Positions 1-12,805 of a DNA stretch of 64,000 nucleotides are shown in pieces. Under the pieces are notes generated by a model. It was not told where the DNA came from and searched no databases. It saw nothing but the letters and a program-made list of their open reading frames with translations. Within the stretch, counting starts at the first letter, position 1; the number at the start of each line of letters is the position of its first letter. The stretch lies in assembly GCA_001725415.1 (NCBI GenBank), contig MEGH01000007.1:20515-84514 (forward strand). The letters run 5' to 3'. Source of the stretch: Pseudonocardia sp. SCN 73-27. Lineage in GTDB: Bacteria > Actinomycetota > Actinomycetes > Mycobacteriales > Pseudonocardiaceae. The position numbers and the translations under genes are program-made.

Positions 1-42
1 GGGGCCGGGGCCGGGGCCGGGGCCGGGGCCGGGGCCGGGGCC
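1..42. repeat. Tandem GGGGCC hexamer, 7 perfect copies
   Basis: The first 42 bases are seven uninterrupted copies of GGGGCC and may continue past the window edge. In the minus-strand synthetase frame they encode alternating Ala and Pro, following a Ser codon, so gain or loss of a unit keeps the frame. The G-rich strand is the template strand of that gene. Confidence 0.95.
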
Positions 43-3000
43 GACGGTGCAGCCGGGAGCGCACCGGCCGGGATGCGGCGCGTCGGCAGCACGACGGTCG
101 CCTCGACGGCGGCCACGTGCCGGGCCGGGCCGGTGAACACCGGGCCGGGCGCCGGACGGTCCAGGTCGAGGTTCGGCACCGAGCCCGCGGCGTAGGCGGC
201 GAGCATGGCGGCCTTGTCGGCGTCCGACCGCGACACCACGACCGGCACGGCCGCGGCCGGTGCGACGGCGACGGGAGCCGGGGCCGGGGTGGCCGGGGTA
301 CGGCGCTCCCGCAGCTCGGTGGCCGGGTTGCCCAGCCACACGGCGTGGGGCTCGACGACCTCGCCCTTCATCAGGAACGCGTCGGCCTCCAGGACCGAGC
401 CCTCCCCCATCGTGACGCCGTAGTGCACGAACGCCTCGACCCCGACGACGACACCCGCGCCGAGCACGGTGGCGTCGGACTTGAACGAGCCGTCCTCCAG
501 CGAGTGGCACTGGATGACGCTGCCGGCGTTGAGGACGACGTCGTCGCCCAGGGTCACCAGCGTCTTCTCCGGGATGGCGCAGCCGTCGTCGAAGACGCGG
601 CGGCCGATGCGCACACCCAGCAGGCGCCAGTTCAGGTTCTTGAACGGGGTGCCGCTGAACAGCGCGCTCGCGCCGAGCTTCCACAGCCGCTCGTGGCGCC
701 AGAAGTACGGGTCGTAGATCGACACGAACCGGGCGCGCAGCGACCGGAAGCCGAGGACGGCCCGCTCGACGAGCGCGGTGAAGAAGATGTTGAACACCAG
801 CGTCCCGACCGTGGCGAGCGCGATGCCCACCTCGGCGAACAGGTAGTAGACGTCGGCCGCGATCGCGAACGTCAGCATGCTGACGAAGAACTGGATGTAG
901 CGGACGCCGAGGAACGCGAGCATCGAGACGACGTTGTGCCGGTTCTTGCGGCGCAGGAGCTTCCGCAGGACGGCCGGGTCCTTCAGGTGGTCGAACTCGG
1001 TGTCGCGGGACACGGTGCGCGGGATCTCGAAGCTCGGCGAGCCGAGCAGGCCGACGTTCTCACGGACCGGGCCGTCCATCGGGACCATGACCTTGGTACC
1101 CAGCAGGACGTTCGTGCCGACCTTGGCGTCGGCGGGGAAGGCGATGTTGTTGCCGATGAAGTTGTCCCGGCCGATCGTGACGTGGGAGAACCGGAACGAC
1201 GAGGCGGAGAAGTCGGCGTTCATGACCGACAGGGCGTCGGACACCATCGTGCCGCGGCCGATCGAGGTGTAGAGCGCGTTGTCCTGTTTGAGCTCCGTGC
1301 CGAAGTTCGAGCCGGTCTGCTCCACCTCACCGAGGTCGTAGCCGATCGCGGCCAGGTAGCCGGTCGCGGCGGAGGCGTCACCGAACAGCGTCATGTAGAA
1401 CGACGAGTTCGTGAGCCGCGTGATCGTCTTGGCGACGGCCCAGCGGATGCCGTGCAGCGGGTAGGTGCGGCCCGGCTTCACGAGCACCGACAGGACGCGC
1501 GGGCCCACGACCATCAGCGCGAGCCCGCCGAGGACGCCGGCGAGGAAGACGCCACCGGTCGCGGCGGCAACCGTCAGGTAGAAGCCGGGGTCGGTGAGCA
1601 GGGCGTGCCCGTCGGCGACGGCGGCGCCGATCGCCGGGACCATCGTGGCGAGGGCCAGCAGCGCGGCACCGGCCAGCGGCAGGATCGCGACGGCCAGCAG
1701 CAGTTGCACGGCGGCGTAGGCGAAGCGGCGCAGCGACCCGCAGGGCAGCGGCTCGACCACGCGGTAGTCGGTCGTCGTCGGCTCGGCGGGGACGCCGTGC
1801 CAGGTCTCGCCCGCCGGGACGTGGGTGCCGGCGTGCACCGAGGACGTGTGCCCGAGCGTCGCGCCGTCGCCGATCGAGGCGCCGATGTCGAGGACGGTCT
1901 TCTCGCCGACGAGCACGTCCGAGCCGATGGAGACGCGGCCGATGCGGATGGCGCCGGAGACGGCGTGGTAGCCGGCGAACGCCGAGTCGCGGCGGATGAC
2001 GGTGTCGGCGCCGATGGTGAGCAGGTCGGTGGCGACGGGCACGGTGCGCGACAGGATCGTCGTGCCCTTGCCGATCTTCGCGCCGAGCGCCCGCAGGTAG
2101 AAGGTGTAGAGGGGGGTGCCGGCGGTGAGCGCCAGCGGGTTGGCCCGGACCAGGGTCTTCACGAGCCAGAACCGGAAGTGCCCGAGGCTCCACAGCCGGA
2201 TCTCGCGTTCGGACCAGCGGCCCACCAGGATCCACTTGGCGGCGATCGGCAGCAGGCACGCGGCGAGGAAGATGCCGGCGTTGTAGAGCGCGGAGCGGCC
2301 GAAGATCGCGAGCGGCGTCGCACCCTCGACCGACCACACGAAGCCCCGCTCGAGCACGAGCGCGGCGAGGTATGTGAAGGCGAGGAACGTGATCAGCTGC
2401 AGGGCGCCCGTCGTCAGGTAGCCGACGGTCGAGCCCTTCACCACGGGCCCGGTGCGGACCGCGGCGGACGCCCCGGGCGCCTCCCCGCCGAGGTGGATCG
2501 CGAGCTCGCGGATCGTCGGGTTGGCGTAGATCTCGCGCATCGACGGCGCCGCCAGCGACGTCTCCTTGCGAAGCGCCGCGGAGAACCGGGCCATGAGCAG
2601 GGAGTTCGCGCCGAGGTCGTCGAAGAAGTTGGAGTCGACGGAGACGGCGTCGAGGCCGATCGTCTTCGCCAGGGTGGCGGCGAGGATCTCCTCGGTCGCG
2701 GTCTCGGCGGCGACCATCTCCCCCGCGGGCCCGCCGGCGCGGCGCATCGTGGGCGGCGGGAGGGCCTTGCGGTCGGCCTTGTCCGACGTCGTCATCGGGA
2801 TGGCGGCGAGGTGCTCCAGGTACGCGGGCACCATGTAGGCGGGCAGCCGCTCACGCAGGTGCGCGTGGATGGCGTCGCTGTCGAGCGGGGCGACGCCCGT
2901 CTTGAGGCTGTAGTAGCCGACGAGCTCGACCTGCCCGGGCGTGGGCTCGAAGGTGTCGACGACGGCCGCCGACACCCCGGGCACCTGCAGCAGCACGGAC

Positions 3001-4370
3001 TCGATCTCGGTCAGCTCGATGCGGTAGCCGCGGATCTTGACCTGCAGGTCGATCCGGCCCATGTACTCGATCTCGCCCTGGTCGTTGACCCGGCCCAGGT
3101 CGCCGGTGCGGTAGATGCGCCCCGACGGGTTGCCGGCGATCCCGAGGAAGTCGGAGATGAACGACTTGTCGGTCAGGTCCTCGCGGTTGAGGTAGCCCGT
3201 GGCCAGGCCGATGCCGGCGATGCCGATCTCGCCGACCTCGCCGTGCGGCAGCGCCCGGTACGGGTTCTCCGGGTCGAGGACGACGGTGGTGTAGGTGGGC
3301 AGCGGCTGGCCGATGGTGACGGGCCGGTCGGGGTGGACCTCGGTCCACGTCGCGGTGACGGTGGCCTCGGTGGGGCCGTAGACGTTGAGGAAGCGGCGGC
3401 CGTCGCGGTGCCAGCGGGCGACGAGGTCCTGCGGGCAGGCCTCGCCCGACACCAGCAGGAAGCGCAGCGCGGGCAGGTCCTCCTCGATCGTCGCGAGCAG
3501 CGTCGGGACGACGCACATCGCGGTGACGCGGCGCTCGGTCAGGAAGGCGTGCAGGTCCATGCCCAGCAGCGACGTGCCGGCGGGCTTGGGCACCAGCGTG
3601 GCACCGGCCATCCACGGCACCCAGATCTCCTCGACGGAGAAGTCGAAGGCGATCGTCATGCCCTGGTAGACGCGGTCGCTGGCGCGCAGGCCGTAGACCT
3701 CGGCGGCGACGCGGACGAAGTTGCAGATGCTCGCGTGCTCGATCGCGACGCCCTTGGGGCGGCCCGTCGTGCCGGAGGTGTAGATCAGGTAGGCGAGGTC
3801 CTCGACGGCCGTGCCGCGCTCGGCCTCGGTCAGCCGGGCACCCGACTGCGCCTCGATCTGCGCGGCGAGCCGGTCGACGTGGATCAGGCCGGGTGCGAAG
3901 TCCTCCAGGCCGACGACGCGCTCGGGCACGTGCGACAGCGACAGCACGGTGCTCACACCGGCGTCGGAGAGGATGTAGGCGATCCGGTCGGCCGGGAACG
4001 CGACGTCCAGCGGCACGTACGCGGCGTTGATCTTCATGACGGCGAGCATGCCGACGTAGGAGTGCACGGCCTGGTCGAACAGCAGCGCGATCCGGTCGCC
4101 CGCGCGGGCACCGGATGCCAGCAGCTGGCGGGCGAGGCGGTTGGCGCGCTCGTCGAGCTCGGAGTAGGTCAGGGCGACGTCGCCGGTGTCGACGGCGAGG
4201 TGGCCGGAGCGCCCGTAGGTGCGCATCCAGTCGGCCTGCTCCTCGAAGACGTGATCGAGGCGCTCACCGGCGCGGGCGCGTGAGCCCTGGGCGTAGTCGG
4301 CGGCCACGAGAAGGGCCGGCGCGTCGGACGCCGCGGTGGGCGGCGCATCGGGTTCCTGCAGCGTGGTCAC
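1..4370 (-). CDS. Pls/PosA-family membrane NRPS (poly-amino-acid synthetase type), C-terminus beyond window
   Basis: Reading from a GTG at 4370 (AGGAG about 7 nt upstream) gives one open frame to the left edge, about 1456 codons, so the end is missing. Order seen: adenylation domain with YTSGTTGRPKG at residues 197-207, the FDFSVEE pocket segment (Asp243), NVYGPTEATVT, and the YRTGDLG and KIRGYRIEL core motifs; a carrier domain with LGANSLL (phosphopantetheine Ser590); then alternating membrane helices and left-handed beta-helix (hexapeptide) segments. There is no ordinary condensation or thioesterase domain. That layout is the Pls (epsilon-poly-lysine synthetase) / PosA family, in which a membrane C-terminal part polymerises one amino acid. 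The monomer cannot be read with confidence. The gene follows an aspartokinase on the same strand, which suggests an aspartate-family monomer such as lysine or diaminobutyrate (inference). The visible C-terminus is an Ala-Pro repeat. Confidence 0.9.
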   Translation of the reverse strand, partial: MTTLQEPDAPPTAASDAPALLVAADYAQGSRARAGERLDHVFEEQADWMRTYGRSGHLAVDTGDVALTYSELDERANRLARQLLASGARAGDRIALLFDQAVHSYVGMLAVMKINAAYVPLDVAFPADRIAYILSDAGVSTVLSLSHVPERVVGLEDFAPGLIHVDRLAAQIEAQSGARLTEAERGTAVEDLAYLIYTSGTTGRPKGVAIEHASICNFVRVAAEVYGLRASDRVYQGMTIAFDFSVEEIWVPWMAGATLVPKPAGTSLLGMDLHAFLTERRVTAMCVVPTLLATIEEDLPALRFLLVSGEACPQDLVARWHRDGRRFLNVYGPTEATVTATWTEVHPDRPVTIGQPLPTYTTVVLDPENPYRALPHGEVGEIGIAGIGLATGYLNREDLTDKSFISDFLGIAGNPSGRIYRTGDLGRVNDQGEIEYMGRIDLQVKIRGYRIELTEIESVLLQVPGVSAAVVDTFEPTPGQVELVGYYSLKTGVAPLDSDAIHAHLRERLPAYMVPAYLEHLAAIPMTTSDKADRKALPPPTMRRAGGPAGEMVAAETATEEILAATLAKTIGLDAVSVDSNFFDDLGANSLLMARFSAALRKETSLAAPSMREIYANPTIRELAIHLGGEAPGASAAVRTGPVVKGSTVGYLTTGALQLITFLAFTYLAALVLERGFVWSVEGATPLAIFGRSALYNAGIFLAACLLPIAAKWILVGRWSEREIRLWSLGHFRFWLVKTLVRANPLALTAGTPLYTFYLRALGAKIGKGTTILSRTVPVATDLLTIGADTVIRRDSAFAGYHAVSGAIRIGRVSIGSDVLVGEKTVLDIGASIGDGATLGHTSSVHAGTHVPAGETWHGVPAEPTTTDYRVVEPLPCGSLRRFAYAAVQLLLAVAILPLAGAALLALATMVPAIGAAVADGHALLTDPGFYLTVAAATGGVFLAGVLGGLALMVVGPRVLSVLVKPGRTYPLHGIRWAVAKTITRLTNSSFYMTLFGDASAATGYLAAIGYDLGEVEQTGSNFGTELKQDNALYTSIGRGTMVSDALSVMNADFSASSFRFSHVTIGRDNFIGNNIAFPADAKVGTNVLLGTKVMVPMDGPVRENVGLLGSPSFEIPRTVSRDTEFDHLKDPAVLRKLLRRKNRHNVVSMLAFLGVRYIQFFVSMLTFAIAADVYYLFAEVGIALATVGTLVFNIFFTALVERAVLGFRSLRARFVSIYDPYFWRHERLWKLGASALFSGTPFKNLNWRLLGVRIGRRVFDDGCAIPEKTLVTLGDDVVLNAGSVIQCHSLEDGSFKSDATVLGAGVVVGVEAFVHYGVTMGEGSVLEADAFLMKGEVVEPHAVWLGNPATELRERRTPATPAPAPVAVAPAAAVPVVVSRSDADKAAMLAAYAAGSVPNLDLDRPAPGPVFTGPARHVAAVEATVVLPTRRIPAGALPAAPSAPAPAPAPAPAPA

Positions 4371-4511
4371 GGTCGGCTCCTGGCTGGAGTTGGGGGCTTT
4401 CTCTGCTGGTCACAAGCCTGCCGACCGCGAATGTCCGATTCGATGGTGTGCTCCCCCGAGCCGGCAGGGCCGCCCCCCGAAGAGGAGTGGGGTTCTCCCC
4501 CCGATACAGCT

Positions 4512-4551
4512 GTGAGTGGCAATAGTCGCTATAGCGACTATTGCCACTCAC
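4512..4551. repeat. 40-bp perfect palindrome between aspartokinase and synthetase genes
   Basis: Two 19-nt arms, the left beginning GTGAGTGGCAATAGTCGCT and the right being its exact reverse complement, flank a central AT, so all 40 bp are self-complementary. It lies 26 bp past the aspartokinase stop and about 140 bp before the synthetase start. It is much less GC-rich than its surroundings. It may be a factor-independent terminator (no T run follows), a cruciform or a copy of a dispersed extragenic palindrome. If it terminates transcription, the synthetase needs its own promoter within 4371-4511. Confidence 0.9.
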
Positions 4552-4577
4552 GAGGTCTGACCTGCGGGAACGCGTGA

Positions 4578-5828
4578 TCAGGCCGCGGTGCGGCGCGCTC
4601 CGGCGGTCTCGCCGCCGACGAGCGCGGCGTGCAGGGCGCGGACCGCGTCGTCGACACGGTCGGCGGCGACGAGCACACCCACCCGCGACGGGGTCGTCGT
4701 CACCAGGCGCGGGGTGATCCCGGCAGCGGCGAGGACGTCGAGCGTCGAGGCCAGGACCTCCGGCGCCCGGGCCAGGCCGAGGCTCACCACGCCGACCGAA
4801 CCGAGGTCCTCCCGGTCGAGCAGCGTGATGCCGGCGGCGTCGAGGGCCGCGGCCACCGCAGCCGGGTCGGCGCCCGGAACGGTCAGGGCCGTCGACGGGG
4901 CGGGGACGACCGCCCCGAGGGCGAGCCCACGGCCCGCCAGCGCGGCGGCGACGGCCGTCATCGGGGCGTCGACGGTGTAGAGGTGCTCGTCGCGGCGGTG
5001 CGCCACCCCGGCCACCGACGCGGTGCCGGCGACCTCGAACTCGCCGCCGCCGCCGCGGATCCAGGTGCCCTCCTCGGTCCCGAAGCTCGACCGCAGGTGG
5101 ATGTCGACGCCGTGCGCCATCGCCAGCTCCACCGACCGCGGCTGCAGCACACCCGCGCCCGCCTCGGCGAGCTCGAGCATCTCCTGCGGACGGATCGTCG
5201 TGCGCCGGCGCGCGTCGGGCACGACCCGCGGGTCGGCGGTGTAGACGGCCGGGACGTCGGTGAAGATCTCGCACTCCCGCGCCCCGAGGGCCGCGGCCAC
5301 GGCGACGGCCGAGGCGTCGGACCCACCGCGGCCCAACGTCGTCGTGTCACCGGTCGGCGACTCGCCCTGGAAGCCGGTGACCAGCACGATCGCGCCCTCG
5401 TCGAGGGCGGCGCGGATGCGGGCCGGGTCGATGCCGAGCATGCGGGCGCTGCCGTGGGTGGCGTCGGTGCGGATGCCGGCCTGCCCCCCGGTGAGCGAGA
5501 CGGCGTGCCCGCCCAGCGACGCGATGGCCATCGCGGTGAGCGCGCAGGAGATCTGCTCACCGACCGAGAGCAGGGCGTCGAGCTCGCGCAGCGGCGGGTT
5601 CGGCGAGATCGCGGCGGCCTGCGTGACGAGCGCGTCGGTCGACTTCCCCATCGCCGACAGCACCGCGACGACCCCGCGTCCGCTGCGCTGGGCGGCCACC
5701 ATGCGTTCGGCGACCGCGCGCACCCGCTCCTGGTCGCCGACGGAGGTGCCGCCGAACTTCCAGACCAGCGGCGCCTGCGGCCCGCTGATGGATCGCGGTG
5801 CCGACTCTCCGCTCCTGCGCCCTGCCAT
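4578..5828 (-). CDS. Aspartokinase, probably a synthetase-dedicated copy
   Basis: 416 aa from ATG 5828 with GAGGAG about 6 nt upstream. It phosphorylates aspartate, the first step to lysine, threonine, methionine and diaminobutyrate. Visible: KFGGTSV at 24-30, VGEQIS, FQG then TTLGRGGSDASA, and TDVPAVYTADPR, all normal kinase-domain motifs, followed by two ACT repeats. The kinase motif is KFGGTSV where the usual actinobacterial LysC has KYGGSSV. The second ACT repeat has APEV (355-358) where family members usually have HPGV, and VTTTPS (376-381) where they have ISTSE. The QNVS segment of the first ACT domain is not recognisable. These are effector-binding elements, so feedback by lysine/threonine is probably altered (inference). 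No asd gene is adjacent, unlike the usual lysC-asd pair. Confidence 0.92.
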   Translation of the reverse strand: MAGRRSGESAPRSISGPQAPLVWKFGGTSVGDQERVRAVAERMVAAQRSGRGVVAVLSAMGKSTDALVTQAAAISPNPPLRELDALLSVGEQISCALTAMAIASLGGHAVSLTGGQAGIRTDATHGSARMLGIDPARIRAALDEGAIVLVTGFQGESPTGDTTTLGRGGSDASAVAVAAALGARECEIFTDVPAVYTADPRVVPDARRRTTIRPQEMLELAEAGAGVLQPRSVELAMAHGVDIHLRSSFGTEEGTWIRGGGGEFEVAGTASVAGVAHRRDEHLYTVDAPMTAVAAALAGRGLALGAVVPAPSTALTVPGADPAAVAAALDAAGITLLDREDLGSVGVVSLGLARAPEVLASTLDVLAAAGITPRLVTTTPSRVGVLVAADRVDDAVRALHAALVGGETAGARRTAA

Positions 5829-5992
5829 GACGTCTCCTCGGTGGTCCCCCCGCCCGGTCTGTCCGGGACTCGGACCGAGACTGCGGCCGGGGCCCGGTCC
5901 GCGGCGATGGTGCGCTCCCCCGGGACCAGGGTGTCCTCCCCCGAGCTGGGGTAGGGCCATCCCTTCGCCCGATCCGCCCGGTTGATCACCGT

Positions 5993-6142
5993 TCAGAGGA
6001 CGTAGGGGTCGGGGCGGGCTGGGCCGCAGGAGTCGAGTCGGCGCAGCTCGGCGCCGTGCGGCAGCAGGTCGGCGCGCACGGCGTCGTCCCACACGTTCTC
6101 CCAGTTGCGGGCGCGCTCGGGCAGGTCGGCGGTCGGGTCCAT
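5993..6142 (-). CDS. Small protein of 49 aa, unrecognised
   Basis: ATG at 6142 with a GGGGGAG ribosome site, TGA at 5993-5995. The protein is acidic in its first half, contains NWENVWDD and ends in GPARPDPYVL. Codon usage is typical of the genome, with third positions almost all G or C, which supports coding. It sits 164 bp upstream of the aspartokinase on the same strand and may be the first gene of the aspartokinase/synthetase transcript. There is no signal peptide, membrane helix or metal motif; it has one Cys. I do not recognise the family. A precursor or accessory peptide is only a speculation. Confidence 0.55.
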   Translation of the reverse strand: MDPTADLPERARNWENVWDDAVRADLLPHGAELRRLDSCGPARPDPYVL

Positions 6143-6261
6143 GGTCGTCTCCCCCGGGTCGGCCCGGGCGCAGGCGGCGGCCCGGGTGTCCGCAGGCTGC
6201 CCCGGCAGGTGCGCGGGCACGAGGGGGTGCGCCCCCGGGCCGCCGGGGCACGCCCCCGGAA

Positions 6262-7434
6262 TCAGATCGACTCGAGGATCTGCTCGAACGCCAGCTCGGC
6301 GGCGCCGACGAGGCGCGCATCGCGGCCCAGCGGCGAGATCGTGATGCGGGTGCCGCCGACGGCGCGGCTCACCAGGCTGCGTTCGTGGACGATCGCGCGC
6401 GCCCGGTCGACGACACGGGGCGGGAGCGCGGTGAGCAGGTCGCCGAGGACGACGAGCTCGGGCGCGAGCATGTTGACCAGCGTGACCAGGCCGGTGGCGA
6501 GCCACTCCGTGAACTCACCGAGCTTGCCGTCGATCTGGTCGGGCGCCGCCGACAGGGACCGCAGCTCGGCGACGAGCGCGCCCCGCGGGGTGTCCTCGGG
6601 CAGCCCGAGGGCCCGGCACAGCGCGGGCTCGCCGACCTCGGTCTCCCAACAGCCCTGGGCACCGCAGAAGCACGCCCGCCCACCGGGGCGGACCTGGATG
6701 TGCCCGATCTCGCCGACGTATCCGCCGGTGCCGCGCAACGGCCGGCCGCCTGCGATGACGCCACCGCCGACGCCGACGTCGGCCGACAGGTAGACGAGGT
6801 CGCTGGACTCCCGCGCGACGCCGCGGACGTGCTCGGCGAGCGCGCCGAGCTCGGCGTCGTTGCCGACGAGGGTGGGCAGCTGCAGCACCGACCCGAGCCG
6901 GCGGCCGAGCGCGACGTCGCGCCAGCCGAGGTTGGGGGCCTCGTGGACGAACCCGTCGGCGCGCCGGACGACCCCGGGCACGGAGACCCCCGCCCCCGAC
7001 ACGACGACCGCGAGCTCGTCGCGTAGCAGCTGGGCCGACTCGACGACGTGGGTGATGACCTCGCCGGGGAGCCGGGTGGTGCGGTGCAGGTTCCAGCTGT
7101 GCCTGCCGAGGATCTGTCCGCCGATGCCGACCATGGCCATGGCGACCTGGTCGACACGGATGTCGACGGCCAGCACGACCGCGGACTGCGGCCGCGGCAG
7201 CACCATCAGGGAGGGCCGTCCCGCCCCGCTGCGTTGGGACGGAACGGCCTCGGTGACGACGCCGGCCTCGGCGAGACCGTCGACCACCGCCTTGATCGTG
7301 CTGCGGTTGAGCCCCAGCTCGGTGGCCAGGGTCGCCCGGGTGCAGGGCCCGTCGACGTGCAGTCGACGCAGCAGCGCCGAGCGATTGTGCCGTCGCGCGT
7401 CGTCGGGCCGGGTACCGGACGTGGGAGCGGTCAC
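6262..7434 (-). CDS. ROK-family transcriptional regulator (xylose-repressor type)
   Basis: 390 aa from GTG 7434, which overlaps the stop of the upstream permease (GTGA). The N-terminal winged helix-turn-helix includes TRATLATELGLNRSTIKAVVDGL. The ROK sugar-binding/kinase-like domain carries the ROK zinc signature CFCGAQGCWE. It is the last gene of a binding protein-ATPase-permease-ROK operon, so it probably senses the imported sugar and represses the operon. The xylose assignment rests on the transporter, not on this protein. Kinase activity is uncertain, because ROK proteins with a DNA-binding domain are usually repressors. Confidence 0.9.
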   Translation of the reverse strand: MTAPTSGTRPDDARRHNRSALLRRLHVDGPCTRATLATELGLNRSTIKAVVDGLAEAGVVTEAVPSQRSGAGRPSLMVLPRPQSAVVLAVDIRVDQVAMAMVGIGGQILGRHSWNLHRTTRLPGEVITHVVESAQLLRDELAVVVSGAGVSVPGVVRRADGFVHEAPNLGWRDVALGRRLGSVLQLPTLVGNDAELGALAEHVRGVARESSDLVYLSADVGVGGGVIAGGRPLRGTGGYVGEIGHIQVRPGGRACFCGAQGCWETEVGEPALCRALGLPEDTPRGALVAELRSLSAAPDQIDGKLGEFTEWLATGLVTLVNMLAPELVVLGDLLTALPPRVVDRARAIVHERSLVSRAVGGTRITISPLGRDARLVGAAELAFEQILESI

Positions 7435-8975
7435 CGGCCGGCGGAGGCCGATCGGCGCCGGGACAGCACGTCGACGCCCGCCGCGACCAGCAGCACGAGG
7501 CCGGTGATCACGAAGACGACGGCCGCGGGCTGCTTGAGCAGACCCAGACCGTTCTCGACGGTCGCGAGGACGGCACCCCCGATGACGGCGTTGCTGATCC
7601 GGCCGCGGCCACCGAACAGCGACGTCCCGCCGATGACGGCCGCACCGACCGCGAACAGCAGCGTGTTGCCGCCACCGGCCGCGGGCGAGACCGACCCGAC
7701 CTTCGACGAGTAGACGATCGCGCCGATGGCGGCGAACGCCGAGCTGATGACGAAGACGCTGGCCCGGATGCGGACCACGTTGATACCGGCGCGGCGCGCG
7801 GCCTCGCGGTTGCCGCCGACGGCATAGACGTGACGGCCGAACCGGGTCCGGTCGAGCACGTAGGTCCCGGCGACGAGTAACACCAACACCACGGGAACGA
7901 CGTATGGCACGCCCGCGATCTCGGTCAGGCCGGCCGATCTGTTGCGCGTCAACAGGTACGTCGCCACCGCGCCGAGGACGACGACGGCGCCGATCTTGAG
8001 CAGCACCAGCCCCGTCGGCTGGGCGACGAGCCCCTTGGCGAGCCGGGTGCGTTGCCGGTTGAGCAGGACGGCCGCGTAGCCGCCTGCCCCGACGACGAAC
8101 AGGATCCAGCTGCCGAGCGTCGACAGGTTGCCGTTGGCGACCGCGTTGATGACGGGGTCGCGCAGGCCGAGGGTGCCGCCGTCGCCGATCAGCTGCAGGA
8201 TGACGCCCTGCCAGGTGATGAACAGCGCCAGGGTCACGACGAACGAGGGCATCCCGACCTTGGCGACGAGGAACCCGGTGAGCACGCCGATGACGACGCC
8301 GACGCACACCGCCAGCAACATCTCCAGCCAGGGATTCTGCGGGAACCCGACCACGAGCAGCAGTGCGGCCAGCACGCTCAAGGCGACTGCCCACCACATC
8401 CGCAGGTACGCGGCGAGCGCGGCCGCGAGCAGCATGACGACGACGAACAGGATGAACACGGTCGTGCCCATCGCGCCGAGCATGTTGCCGCCCGACACGA
8501 GGTGCAGCGCCATGAGCGAGGCGGCGAGGCCGGACGCGGTGCCGGCGGCGAGGTCGATCTCGCCCGTCAGCAGCACGAACACCAGGCCCATCGCGATGAT
8601 GGTGCGGCCGGCGCCCTGCTGGAGGAGGTTCGCGAGGTTCAGCAGGCTGGGGAAGACGCCGGCGCGGTCGAGGGCGGTGAACAGGATGAACAGGGCCAGC
8701 AGGCCGAGCAGCGCCGGCAGCGAGCCGAGCTCGCCGGAGCGCAGCCGCGTGCCGTAGTCGCGCAGCGCCTGGCCGGTGGTGCGGGCGGTGGTGTCGATGC
8801 CGAAGTCGCCCTGGCGGCCGCCGGGCCCGGCCCGCTCGGCCGCGCCGGGCGGGTGCTCGGTCGAGGTCGAGGTCGAGGTCGCCGTGGCGGTCGGCGCGGC
8901 GTCGCCGGTCGTGGCCTCGGACTTGCTGACGTCGACGGGTACGTCGCCGCCGGAGTGGTCGCCGTGGTCGCTCAC
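7431..8975 (-). CDS. Sugar ABC transporter permease (XylH-like)
   Basis: 514 aa from GTG 8975, overlapping the ATPase stop by four bases. A hydrophilic N-terminal tail of about 75 residues rich in Thr, Ser and Pro (with an STSTSTE run) precedes about 10-12 predicted membrane helices of the ribose/xylose permease family. Motifs include GEIDLAAGT near the second helix and VYAVGGNREAARRAGI in the cytoplasmic loop that contacts the ATPase. The length and the central extra helices fit the XylH branch better than RbsC (about 320 aa). It works with the adjacent ATPase and binding protein as one importer. Confidence 0.9.
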   Translation of the reverse strand: MSDHGDHSGGDVPVDVSKSEATTGDAAPTATATSTSTSTEHPPGAAERAGPGGRQGDFGIDTTARTTGQALRDYGTRLRSGELGSLPALLGLLALFILFTALDRAGVFPSLLNLANLLQQGAGRTIIAMGLVFVLLTGEIDLAAGTASGLAASLMALHLVSGGNMLGAMGTTVFILFVVVMLLAAALAAYLRMWWAVALSVLAALLLVVGFPQNPWLEMLLAVCVGVVIGVLTGFLVAKVGMPSFVVTLALFITWQGVILQLIGDGGTLGLRDPVINAVANGNLSTLGSWILFVVGAGGYAAVLLNRQRTRLAKGLVAQPTGLVLLKIGAVVVLGAVATYLLTRNRSAGLTEIAGVPYVVPVVLVLLVAGTYVLDRTRFGRHVYAVGGNREAARRAGINVVRIRASVFVISSAFAAIGAIVYSSKVGSVSPAAGGGNTLLFAVGAAVIGGTSLFGGRGRISNAVIGGAVLATVENGLGLLKQPAAVVFVITGLVLLVAAGVDVLSRRRSASAGR

Positions 8976-9751
8976 TGGGTCACCCCCGCTGCCTCGGGCC
9001 GGGCGAGGCCCAGATCGCCGGAGCGTCCGGCGGTGATGAGCTCGACGACCTGGCCGTGCGTGACGTCCTTCGTCGGGACCTCGGCGACCATGCGGCCGAG
9101 GTAGAGGGTCGCGATGCGGTCGGCGACCTCGAAGACGTCGGCCATGTTGTGGCTGATGAGTACGACGCCGAGGCCCTGCTCGGCGAGGCGGCGGACGAGG
9201 TCGAGGACCTGGCGGGTCTGCGCGACTCCGAGGGCCGCGGTCGGCTCGTCGAGGAGCACGACCTTCGAGTCCCAGAGGACGGCCTTGGCGATGGCGACGG
9301 TCTGGCGCTGCCCACCGGACAGGGACGCGACGGGCATCCGGACCGATGTCACGGTGCGCACCGACAGCGACGCCAGCGTGCGGCGGGCGGCCTGCTCCAT
9401 GTCGGACTCGTCGAGCAGCCAGGGCTTGCCGCGCTCGCGGCCGAGGAACATGTTCTGGACGATGTCGAGGTTGTCGGCCAGCGCGAGATCCTGGTAGACG
9501 ACCTCGATGCCGAGCGCGGAGGCGTCGGCGGGTGCGTGGATCGCGACGGGCTCCCCGTTGAACAGGATCTCGCCGCCGTCGATGGGGTGGATGCCGGCGA
9601 CGCACTTGACCAGCGTGGACTTGCCGGCGCCGTTGTCGCCGACGAGCGCGGTGACCTCGCCGGCCCGCACGGTGAAGTCGACGTCGTGCAGTACCCGCAC
9701 GGCGCCGAAGCTCTTGGAGACCGCCCGCAGCTGCAGGATCGGTTCGGACAA
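8972..9751 (-). CDS. Sugar ABC transporter ATP-binding protein (single-domain, XylG/FrcA-like)
   Basis: About 259 aa. Walker A GDNGAGKST, signature LSGGQRQ, Walker B VVLLDEPT and switch His in VVLISHN are all present. I place the start at TTG 9751, giving LSEPILQLRAVSKSF, because GAGGAG lies 6 nt upstream; an in-frame GTG at 9769 is the alternative but has that ribosome site inside the coding region. It has one ATPase domain, whereas RbsA/XylG are usually double, so it should act as a homodimer as FrcA does. It is coupled to the permease by a GTGA overlap. Confidence 0.9.
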   Translation of the reverse strand: MSEPILQLRAVSKSFGAVRVLHDVDFTVRAGEVTALVGDNGAGKSTLVKCVAGIHPIDGGEILFNGEPVAIHAPADASALGIEVVYQDLALADNLDIVQNMFLGRERGKPWLLDESDMEQAARRTLASLSVRTVTSVRMPVASLSGGQRQTVAIAKAVLWDSKVVLLDEPTAALGVAQTRQVLDLVRRLAEQGLGVVLISHNMADVFEVADRIATLYLGRMVAEVPTKDVTHGQVVELITAGRSGDLGLARPEAAGVTQ

Positions 9752-9783
9752 CTCGCGCTCCTCTCTCACGATCGTGGGCCGGG

Positions 9784-9822
9784 ACGCGGCGCCGGCGTCG
9801 GGTCTCGACGCCGGCGCCGCGT
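9784..9822. terminator. 17-bp perfect hairpin inside the sugar importer operon
   Basis: ACGCGGCGCCGGCGTCG pairs perfectly with its complement across a 5-nt loop (GGTCT), between the binding-protein stop (9846) and the ATPase start. There is no T run. In sugar ABC operons such a stem usually reduces read-through or protects the 5' mRNA, so that the binding protein is made in excess of the membrane parts. Confidence 0.75.
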
Positions 9823-9845
9823 GCTCGGCCGGACGGGTCAGGGGG

Positions 9846-10970
9846 TCACTTGATCCCGAGCTGCGTGCAGGCGGCCTGCGTCGCGGCGACGCAGATCTCG
9901 CTGGCCTTCACGTAGCCGGCGTCGGTGACGACCTTGACGTTGTCCTTGGTGATCAGCTGCGGGGTGAGCAGGACGGACTTGACCTGGCGGTTCCCCTTCG
10001 GGTCGTCCGTGTTCTGCGTCGCCACGGCGTTGGCCGCCGCGGTGTCACCCTTGGCCAGTGCCGCCGCGAGCTTGGCGGTGGCGTCGGCCTCCTCCTGGAT
10101 CGGCTTGAAGACCGTCATGTACTGGTCCCCGCGGAGGATGGCCTGCAGGCCGTCGGCCGTGGCGTCCTGGCCGGTGACCGGGACCTTGCCGTTGAGGCCG
10201 TTCTTGGTGAGAACGGTGATGATCGCGCCGGCGAGGCCGTCGTTGGCGGCGACGACGCCGTCGACCTTGCCGCCGTTGGCGGTCAGGATCTGCTCGAACG
10301 TGGTGCCGCCGACCTGGTTGTCCCACTTGTCGATCGGCTGGTTGCGGACGAGCTTGTAGGCACCCGAGTCGTACTTCGGCTGCAGGACGGTCATCTGACC
10401 GTTGTAGAACAGCGTCGCGTTGTTGTCGGTCGGGGCGCCCTCGATCTGGATGATCTGCGCGCCCGCCTTGTCGCCGACACCCTGGACGAGGCCCTGGCCC
10501 TGCAGCGCGCCGACCTTCACGTTGTCGAAGGACACGTAGTAGTCGCTGGTGCCGCCGAGGTTGAGCCGGTCGTAGTCGATGACCGGGATGCCCTGGGCCT
10601 TGGCCTTGGCGGCGACGGCGGCGCCGCCGTCGGACGAGATCGAGGCGATGACCAGGACCTTGACGCCACTGGAGATCATCCCGTCGGCGAGGGTGGAGAA
10701 CTTCTGCTCGTCACCCTGGGCGTTCTGGATGTCGGGGTCGAGCCCCTGGGCCCGCATGGCCTTGTCGAGCATCGGCTTGTCGAAGCCTTCCCAGCGGGCC
10801 GACGAGTCGGTCTCCGGGAGGATCACGCCGACCTTCACACCGCCTGCCGCGGGAGCGGTGCTGCCCCCGGTGCTGCCCCCGGTCGAGGGCGCGGCGTTCT
10901 GGCCGCATGCCGCCAGCGCGAACGCCAGGCCCGCACTGACGACGGCAAGGGCCGTTCTCCGTATGCGCAT
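9846..10970 (-). CDS. Xylose-type sugar-binding lipoprotein (XylF-like)
   Basis: 374 aa from ATG 10970 with GGAAGGA upstream. Basic start, hydrophobic segment and lipobox LAAC (Cys22), so it should be a membrane-anchored lipoprotein. A Gly/Ser/Thr-rich linker precedes a periplasmic-binding fold of type I with VGVILPETDSSARW, DYDRLNLGG and AANDGLAGAII, all typical of the D-xylose-binding branch. It is the first gene of the four-gene operon ending in ROK. Substrate could also be another pentose or a related monosaccharide. Confidence 0.9.
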   Translation of the reverse strand: MRIRRTALAVVSAGLAFALAACGQNAAPSTGGSTGGSTAPAAGGVKVGVILPETDSSARWEGFDKPMLDKAMRAQGLDPDIQNAQGDEQKFSTLADGMISSGVKVLVIASISSDGGAAVAAKAKAQGIPVIDYDRLNLGGTSDYYVSFDNVKVGALQGQGLVQGVGDKAGAQIIQIEGAPTDNNATLFYNGQMTVLQPKYDSGAYKLVRNQPIDKWDNQVGGTTFEQILTANGGKVDGVVAANDGLAGAIITVLTKNGLNGKVPVTGQDATADGLQAILRGDQYMTVFKPIQEEADATAKLAAALAKGDTAAANAVATQNTDDPKGNRQVKSVLLTPQLITKDNVKVVTDAGYVKASEICVAATQAACTQLGIK

Positions 10971-11431
10971 CGATGTCCTTCCACGTCGTCGTGGGCCGCC
11001 GTCGCGGCGCCCGAATGTTGCGAGCGACAACGTATGACTCGACCCCACGTGACCGGAAGCACACTGGATCGGTCCAGGTGCCTCCGGAACATCACATTTG
11101 GGTCACGCACCGGGGAATTTGTTGTCGACGTCAGCCGAACAACGCGCAGCGGTCACCGAGCGGCGCCGCAGCGCGACACGCCCGAACGGTCCGGAGCCGA
11201 CAGTGTGGTTCCGGGCCGTGCACGTGCCGTTCGGCGACCAGCTTCCCGGACACCCCCGGCTTGAGCCGATCGCGCAGTCGCAACGGCCCGCATTTCTCTC
11301 TCGATGTCCCAGAAACGCGACAAACAGCGCCTTATCGGACGCCCGCAGTCCGGGGAATCACCCGTTCGCGCAGCTGTCGGTCACGCGACGTCACACGTTG
11401 GGCTATCACTGTGCGTAGCCGGCCGGGCCGC
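10971..11431. other. 461-bp gene-free region upstream of the sugar importer
   Basis: No convincing ORF. It must hold the minus-strand operon promoter. Weak candidates for a ROK operator are GTTGCGAGCGACAAC near 11016-11030 and a TTGTT/AACAA inverted pair at 11119-11123 and 11138-11142; neither is strong enough to call. Confidence 0.5.
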
Positions 11432-12349: not shown

Positions 12350-12619
12350 GACCCGACGAGAGTTAACGCACCTGACCTTGCGAGCCCACCAGCGGCACCG
12401 CATCATTCACTCGTCGTCAACTGAATGCGCAGAGGTTCTCCGGCGTACACCGGAACGACGTCTCACCGACCCCGAGTGGTCGAACGTGACGGTCGTCGCC
12501 CCCGGGCCGGGAACACGTACAGGGGTTCTGTACGTCTGCAAGAGTGGGCGCACCGCGCAGGCGGTCGTCCAGTGCACAGGGCACCGGATGTTCCGGTGTC
12601 GAGACGGAGGGAGACCGCC

Positions 12620-12805
12620 ATGCAGCCCGGAACCCTTACCCGCCCCGAGTTGACCGCCGCCGACCGTTGTGACCGTTGCGGAGCGGCAGCCAAGGTCCGC
12701 GCCGTACTTCCCACCGGCGGAGAGCTCCTCTTCTGCGGGCACCACGCCCGGGCCCACGCCGACAAGCTGCGCGAGCTCGAGGTGGACGTCCAGTCCGGCA
12801 GTTGA
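12620..12805 (+). CDS. DUF7455-type small zinc-binding protein
   Basis: 61 aa, ATG 12620 behind GGAGGGAG. CDRCGAA and later LLFCGHHAR supply a Cys/Cys/Cys/His/His set typical of this small actinobacterial family, whose role is unknown. Short and probably cytosolic. It follows a gene-free stretch (12350-12619) in which I see only the expected promoters of this gene and of the divergent transporter. Confidence 0.85.
   Translation: MQPGTLTRPELTAADRCDRCGAAAKVRAVLPTGGELLFCGHHARAHADKLRELEVDVQSGS

Follow-up and report, generated by a model that had tools for sequence, protein, structure and literature searches.

The window analysed here is a stretch of 64,000 nucleotides corresponding to bases 20515-84514 of contig 7 of the 6.95-Mb genome of Pseudonocardia sp. 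SCN 73-27, a soil-type actinobacterium, and its left end carries part of a locus that encodes a membrane-bound nonribosomal peptide synthetase (NRPS) of the Pls/PosA family and an aspartokinase. On the minus strand, the aspartokinase gene (ask, 4578-5828, with an ATG start behind GAGGAG) is followed by the synthetase gene (3..4370), which has a GTG start at 4370 and whose frame stays open to base 3 and past the left edge into an assembly gap of 32 Ns; the portion inside the window comprises the first 1456 residues. In profile searches, the synthetase matches TIGR02353 ('Pls/PosA family') with 646.9 bits (cut-off 423.1), AMP-binding, PP-binding and two Pfam hexapeptide-repeat models, one above its cut-off and the other (Hexapep_2) just below, and a hydropathy scan returns seven segments above 1.6 between residues 654 and 1206. 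Its layout, all on the minus strand, is a single adenylation (A) domain (2760..4205, from profile matches and the pocket alignment) and a carrier (T, PP-binding) domain (2490..2684, from a profile match), followed by the TIGR02353 terminal domain with its predicted membrane segments and hexapeptide-type repeats (321..2411) and by an Ala/Pro-rich tail (3..320) that, judged by its translation and by comparison with relatives, heads towards a diaminobutyrate transaminase (Dat). The initial annotation of this DNA, made from the sequence alone, had described a membrane NRPS of A-T-beta-helix/TM layout adjoining a same-strand aspartokinase, and the TIGR02353, AMP-binding, PP-binding and Hexapep matches bear this out; the right end that it gave, 6142, overshoots the kinase start into leader DNA. 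It had also suggested looking for the rest of the locus to the left of the window, and there, past the gap, lies dat (contig 7, 18701-20263, minus strand; 5702-7264 of L011, our handle for the locus of the window's own genome), whose product matches TIGR00709 (diaminobutyrate-2-oxoglutarate transaminase) with 451 bits (cut-off 401.6). The window's first base directly borders the gap, which sits within an Ala-Pro repeat.

The substrate pocket was read with the usual ten-residue code, its columns being placed by aligning motifs of PheA. The window's code, DFECLSVVTK, is common to 44 of the 63 coded A domains (the window itself and three duplicates counted in) and agrees in nine of ten residues with that of S. 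celluloflavus (DFECLSAVTK, locus L131), presumably the published producer strain of poly-2,4-diaminobutyrate (poly-Dab), while that of Streptoalloteichus hindustanus (L170) reads DFECLSCVSK. A second survey yielded a code for 50 of 55 loci, and 31 of these have a DFE pocket: 18 have a close Dat match (66% identity or more across 300 amino acids), two a Dat of 39-41%, and 11 (e.g., L099, L106, L258 and L260) have no Dat in the stretch fetched. All 18 loci with the closer Dat match have a DFE pocket, and among the stretches fetched no Dat was found in loci with non-DFE pockets, including eight with DAESIGTVV, an Ala-type pocket that we read as Lys-type, and six with DIWQSTADD; by these counts, Dat implies a DFE pocket, yet a DFE pocket does not imply a Dat nearby. 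According to PMC10522769, pocket residue 2 sets the PDAP and PDAB (diaminopropionate and diaminobutyrate) synthetases, with Phe, apart from PosA, with Met, and Pls, with Ala. The comparison with Pls and PosA that the initial annotation had proposed thus places the pocket in the Dab/diaminopropionate (Dap) kind, with Phe at position 2, which fits an aspartate-derived diamino acid.

The product that fits best is, very probably, γ-poly-L-2,4-diaminobutyrate, a known polymer. Dat would aminate aspartate semialdehyde to L-Dab, which the A domain would adenylate and the carrier domain hold, before the membrane-bound terminal domain joined the Dab units through the side-chain amine. As to configuration, a tblastn search with S. 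hindustanus PddB, a DapF-like racemase, against the window, L010-L012 and the relatives supplied matched only L170 and L176, which favours an L polymer; no PddB-like racemase was found at the window locus in this search, which took in the stretches supplied and not the rest of the genome. The initial annotation had envisaged an undescribed cationic polymer or a lysine-tailed product. Neither is supported: the pocket is of the Dab/Dap kind with Phe at position 2, the eight related DAESIGTVV synthetases have no Dat in the stretches fetched, Dat lies next door here, and synthetase-dat-ask loci are already published for poly-Dab. We also dropped a lysine or ornithine polymer, against which the pocket and Dat argue, poly-D-Dab, as no racemase was found in the locus (the genome was not searched for one), and a supply of ectoine, no ectoine genes having been noticed in the neighbourhood read, where they were not specifically searched for.

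Some observations nevertheless pull away from a Dab polymer. Phe at position 2 fits diaminopropionate as well, so that it is Dat alone that speaks for Dab; over a third of the DFE loci (the 11 of 31 above) lack Dat in the stretch fetched; and the terminal domain is only 27% identical to that of S. hindustanus (755 aligned residues) and 30% to that of S. celluloflavus (305 aligned). The synthetase might then polymerise another diamino acid, diaminopropionate or lysine, while Dat and Ask served some other need for Dab or aspartate-family compounds, and it would be in keeping with this that Dap and Dab synthetases share the Phe (PMC10522769) and that some Dab is accepted by the PDAP A domain too. 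We nonetheless regard this as improbable, given that Dat lies in the synthetase's own reading frame in four relatives, that the window's pocket is a single residue away from that of L131 and that the Ala-type pocket is clearly unlike it.

This shared frame is found in four of the five closest loci, namely L077 (the locus of the sister genome G217), L078, L073 and L080, the latter three also being represented by the copies L117 (Pseudonocardia sp. N23), L118 (P. dioxanivorans CB1190) and L119 (P. xinjiangensis), respectively. In all four, no stop codon separates the synthetase from Dat, the frame continuing across a Pro/Ala linker to give, from the homologous start, 1995 (L077), 1988 (L078), 2056 (L073) and 1910 (L080) residues, with in-frame gaps between the matched parts of 618, 588, 804 and 363 bases. 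The fifth, L121, is not a fusion, its synthetase ending in a stop that shares bases with the start codon of dat (ATGA); its Dat also has an apparent frame break. In more distant loci, synthetase and dat stand apart or in other orders, and L147 was rejected as a further case, as a stop precedes its Dat. Since ribosomes that finish the synthetase meet no intervening stop, and the linkers differ in length by whole codons, they should enter Dat in frame, so that translating the synthetase would be expected to yield a fusion that ties Dat physically to the polymerising enzyme in this Pseudonocardia group.

Several features speak against such a tether. In the window's own genome, the fusion is unreadable because of the assembly gap: both sides read Ala-Pro in their own frames, and the 32 Ns, a count that we take as an estimate, place them out of frame. 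The linker, with substitutions at codon positions 1/2/3 of 8/4/4, 13/18/16, 16/14/13 and 18/18/15, has no third-position excess, as expected of an untranslated spacer. Such an excess is present in the tail before it, whichever of the four comparisons is taken, and also beyond the internal Met of Dat in the three comparisons among L077, L078 and L073. Moreover, an AGGAG ahead of the internal Dat ATG is kept in five of five loci (L011, L077, L078, L073 and L080). It is therefore conceivable, although we consider it doubtful, that synthetase and Dat are simply two proteins, Dat being made solely from its own AGGAG-ATG and the missing stop being an accident of GC-rich DNA; the conserved ribosome site, the unbiased linker codons and the ATGA overlap in L121 would all agree with this, and the uninterrupted frame with whole-codon linker differences in four loci would not. 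In our reading, the fusion should be made, and the conserved internal site could yield free Dat as well, which is probably also made. In the cell, the tether would amount, if the fused frame is one working protein, to a direct coupling of the synthesis of a non-protein monomer to its polymerisation, and the window's own genome presumably encodes the same fusion across the gap.

The terminal domain has a history different from that of its surroundings. Between L011 and L077, protein identity is about 98% over residues 1-640 but falls to about 60-61% over residues 641-1328; past residue 1328 it recovers in the tail, drops in the linker and reaches about 96% in Dat. The segment concerned (387..2450, minus strand, with approximate breakpoints at residues ~641 and ~1328) begins between the carrier and the terminal domain and ends near the terminal domain's end. 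Synonymous distances between the two loci are 0.097 for the housekeeping lysC, 0.098 for A-T, 0.182 for Dat and 0.234 for the kinase, as against 0.480 for the terminal domain, whose non-synonymous distance is 0.324 compared with 0.011 for A-T. Ordinary fast evolution, which we considered as a cause of the low identity, was rejected on the grounds of this synonymous distance. For L011-L078 (0.225) and L077-L073 (0.297), in contrast, the terminal-domain synonymous distances are ordinary, from which it follows that loci which otherwise agree carry one or the other of two versions of the domain. The surrounding DNA is largely collinear across L011, L077, L078 and L073. As a control, we collected 29 locus pairs with an A-T identity of at least 85% (best local matches). 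The 23 pairs from outside this Pseudonocardia group have terminal domains 79.6-93.8% identical, while among the six inside it four lie at 61.7-62.2% and two at 86-88%. Comparable falls from A-T to terminal domain are seen between L144 and four Catellatospora loci (~79 vs 54%), between L080 and L121 (85 vs 58%) and between L155 and L159 (76 vs 52%), which are weaker cases as the pairs are more distant. Searching 62 genomes of the genus, we found A-T DNA matching that of the window at 91% or more only in G217, G234 and G169, besides its own genome, and among the fetched loci there is no near donor of either version. The sequences thus indicate a cassette-like exchange of the whole polymerising domain.

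The aspartokinase matches TIGR00657 with 310 bits (cut-off 208.7) and misses all listed equivalog cut-offs, two of them narrowly (365 of 376 and 345 of 346 bits). The initial annotation had seen intact kinase motifs together with APEV and VTTTPS in the second ACT repeat and no QNVS, all of which the alignments confirm, and had taken the enzyme to be deregulated and to feed a homopolymer. The comparisons support a second, pathway-linked aspartokinase with a decayed regulatory region, and the other lysC-asd pair that it had proposed to look for is present on contig 11, with a normal, housekeeping LysC. Each of 12 same-genus genomes searched has one LysC (384-450 bits), and five have an extra kinase (G217, G234, G169, G212, with two, and G104), at least one of which sits, in each of the five, at a Dat-linked synthetase (in G212, the neighbours of one of the two kinases were viewed). 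Compared with the LysC of the window's genome, 12 housekeeping LysCs have identities of 87-100% (catalytic part) and 78-96% (ACT part); the corresponding values for the extra kinases are 50-53% and 27-35%.

Among 80 loci found through Dat, some of which are cut by contig ends, 52 have a kinase match, 60 a synthetase A-domain match and 43 both. Adding five loci and removing three duplicates (L117-L119) and four broken, short or aberrant kinases (L136, L162, L169 and L175) leaves 50 Dat-linked kinases, some of them without a synthetase match in the stretch. None of the 50 has QN[IV]S, although seven keep the Ser at its last place, and HPGV is found in one and TSE[IL]RIS in nine; all three motifs are present in 13 of 13 housekeeping LysCs. 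In our alignments, the Corynebacterium glutamicum kinase entries 3aaw and 3ab4, the latter of which we take to be a feedback-resistant mutant, differ at the Ser of QNVS (Ser vs Phe). By thresholds of our own choosing, the ACT region is largely kept in 17 of the 50, eroded in 24 and wholly or half lost in nine. L177, L179, L184 and L186 are 62-65% identical in the catalytic part with just 12-18 aligned ACT residues, and L160, L161, L185, L188 and L191 have 77-109 of 165 ACT residues aligned. On a quick catalytic-domain tree of 58 rows (the 50 plus eight housekeeping kinases), with several weak forks and long branches that may meet falsely, these three labels need six changes, so that decay would have arisen several times. 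The effector-blind kinase that the initial annotation had proposed thereby gains comparative support: Ask would phosphorylate aspartate freed from Lys/Thr inhibition, and the housekeeping Asd from contig 11 would supply the aspartate semialdehyde.

The case is tempered by the ACT_9 match that persists in the window's kinase, by the 17 kinases that keep much of the region, by the recognisable ACT region of the kinase in the S. celluloflavus locus and by the observation that ACT regions evolve faster than the catalytic part in housekeeping LysCs too. Ask could be an ordinary regulated isoenzyme that has merely diverged and in which an effector, possibly Dab, still binds at the altered motifs. 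The catalytic part is likewise only ~53% identical to LysC, and the lower ACT identity is thus partly general divergence; moreover, Ask_Ect, a feedback-altered kinase of ectoine clusters, may still respond to threonine, by which the enzyme of P. stutzeri remains inhibited (PMC5924519, which, with PMC10464499 and PMC8690038, each in accessible part, is the kinase-regulation literature used). Against retained regulation stand the lack of QN[IV]S in all 50 Dat-linked kinases, the few aligned ACT residues of L177, L179, L184 and L186 beside catalytic parts at 62-65% and the several origins of decay on the quick tree, in the light of which we hold it to be unlikely and favour a feedback-freed kinase.

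The leaders of the two genes share an 18-bp element, CGGGGGAGCACACCATCG upstream of the synthetase (4441..4458, minus strand), where a further G-run starts about 21 bp upstream (4478), and CGGGGGAGCGCACCATCG upstream of ask (5905..5922, minus strand), where a looser copy begins 21 bp farther up (5926-5943). The genome contains just two exact copies of the 18-mer CGGGGGAGCRCACCATCG, one ahead of ask and one ahead of the synthetase, and nine more places match it with two mismatches; a slightly looser form is found at both places in L077, L078 and L073 and at one place in L080 and L121. In all ten leaders (two genes in five genomes), the matching G-run is accompanied by a second one at a spacing of 21 bp between starts, or of 20 or 21 bp for runs of six Gs (ahead of three synthetases), but G-runs are common in this DNA. 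Between the two genes lies a perfect 40-bp palindrome (4512..4551, no strand assigned), which is identical in L077; in L073 both of its arms have changed but still pair, and L078 has a different hairpin in its place. A relaxed-threshold Rfam search over 4300-6300 gave four matches, all below gathering scores, including a microRNA model on the palindrome that we attribute to chance. There are probably two transcripts under one regulator, with a terminator-like hairpin in between, and ask and the synthetase-Dat unit would be switched on together through the shared, repeated G-box element.

Several of these components are known from other systems. The published pldA presumably comes from S. celluloflavus, to judge from the reference list of the paper that names it. 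The poly-L-Dab gene set named pldA, dat and ask in a figure legend (PMC8117764, accessible part) comprises the same three genes as the window locus; in L131, however, they are separate and in the order synthetase-dat-ask, unlike in the window. The poly-D-Dab locus of S. hindustanus encodes PddA, PddB, the transaminase PddC (Dat) and a 'pathway-specific aspartate kinase', PddD (PMC8225329, accessible part), and thus shares with the window locus a dedicated kinase, whose ACT region is decayed in L170 as well, and a transaminase, but has PddB between synthetase and Dat. PosA, for δ-poly-L-ornithine in Acinetobacter, and Pls, for ε-poly-L-lysine, belong to the same TIGR02353 family with an A-T-membrane terminal domain layout and differ from the window's synthetase at pocket position 2, as described above. 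Nor is the idea of a feedback-altered kinase beside a Dab-making enzyme new, as Ask_Ect is an extra aspartokinase beside a Dab-making transaminase in which feedback residues are not conserved, although it feeds ectoine and is found mainly in Alpha- and Gammaproteobacteria (PMC5924519, accessible part). A system of the synthetase-dat-ask kind is hence already published for poly-Dab, while the joining of synthetase and Dat and the swap of the polymer-forming half look new: the accessible parts of PMC10522769, PMC9606270, PMC4668381, PMC8225329 and PMC8117764 do not describe a synthetase-Dat fusion, an exchanged terminal domain, a loss of ACT regions seen by comparison or an element common to both leaders, a comparison that covers open-licence literature and does not establish priority. 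The genes, the pocket, the relatives' reading frames, the ACT decay, the exchange and the element are all read directly from sequence; the product with its L configuration and linkage, the feedback insensitivity of the kinase, the tether in the cell and in the window's own genome, and the co-regulation are steps that we infer.

Upstream of ask, the minus strand (6262-11048) carries a ROK-family regulator (PF00480) and then, by eye, genes for an ABC sugar-transport permease, an ATPase and a binding protein; in G217, ~970 bases between ask and the ROK gene (L077, ~3906-4882) do not align with the window's genome. Two similar small proteins, again recognised by eye, flank the locus, one on each side (window 12425-12805 and L011 ~4750-5001), and both carry the motif DRCD.CGAAA.V..VLPT.GELLFCGHHAR. 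Left of dat, a minus-strand frame (L011 ~5090-5397) without an NCBIfam match resembles, by eye, the N-terminal part of ATP synthase subunit a and appears to be a fragment. Across the genus, TIGR02353 is matched above its cut-off in 53 of 60 genomes, at least 15 times in some, and many of these matches lie in open frames of only ~850-1000 residues that are perhaps terminal domains without an A domain. Finally, L120, which starts at a contig end, L122 (P. acaciae) and L148 have a Dat of this type and no synthetase match in the DNA examined.

Taken jointly, the locus may represent a tethered assembly line, with transaminase, activating domain and polymerising membrane domain in one polypeptide and a feedback-freed kinase to supply it, whose polymerising domain is swapped whole, as a cassette, between strains while the choice and supply of the monomer do not change, a tentative reading to which we assign a probability of roughly 0.3. 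To our knowledge, how Pls-type enzymes set chain length is still open, and two genomes whose kinase, A-T and Dat are 95-98% identical but whose terminal domains are only 61% identical offer a ready natural experiment on this question. The Dat-linked kinases, in turn, provide natural aspartokinases with a decayed or missing ACT region, which would be useful for work on allostery and for making aspartate-family compounds. If the joint reading is true, the polymers of different strains in this Pseudonocardia group would share one chemistry and differ in chain length or in export or target properties, and the strains would constitute a natural domain-swap series.

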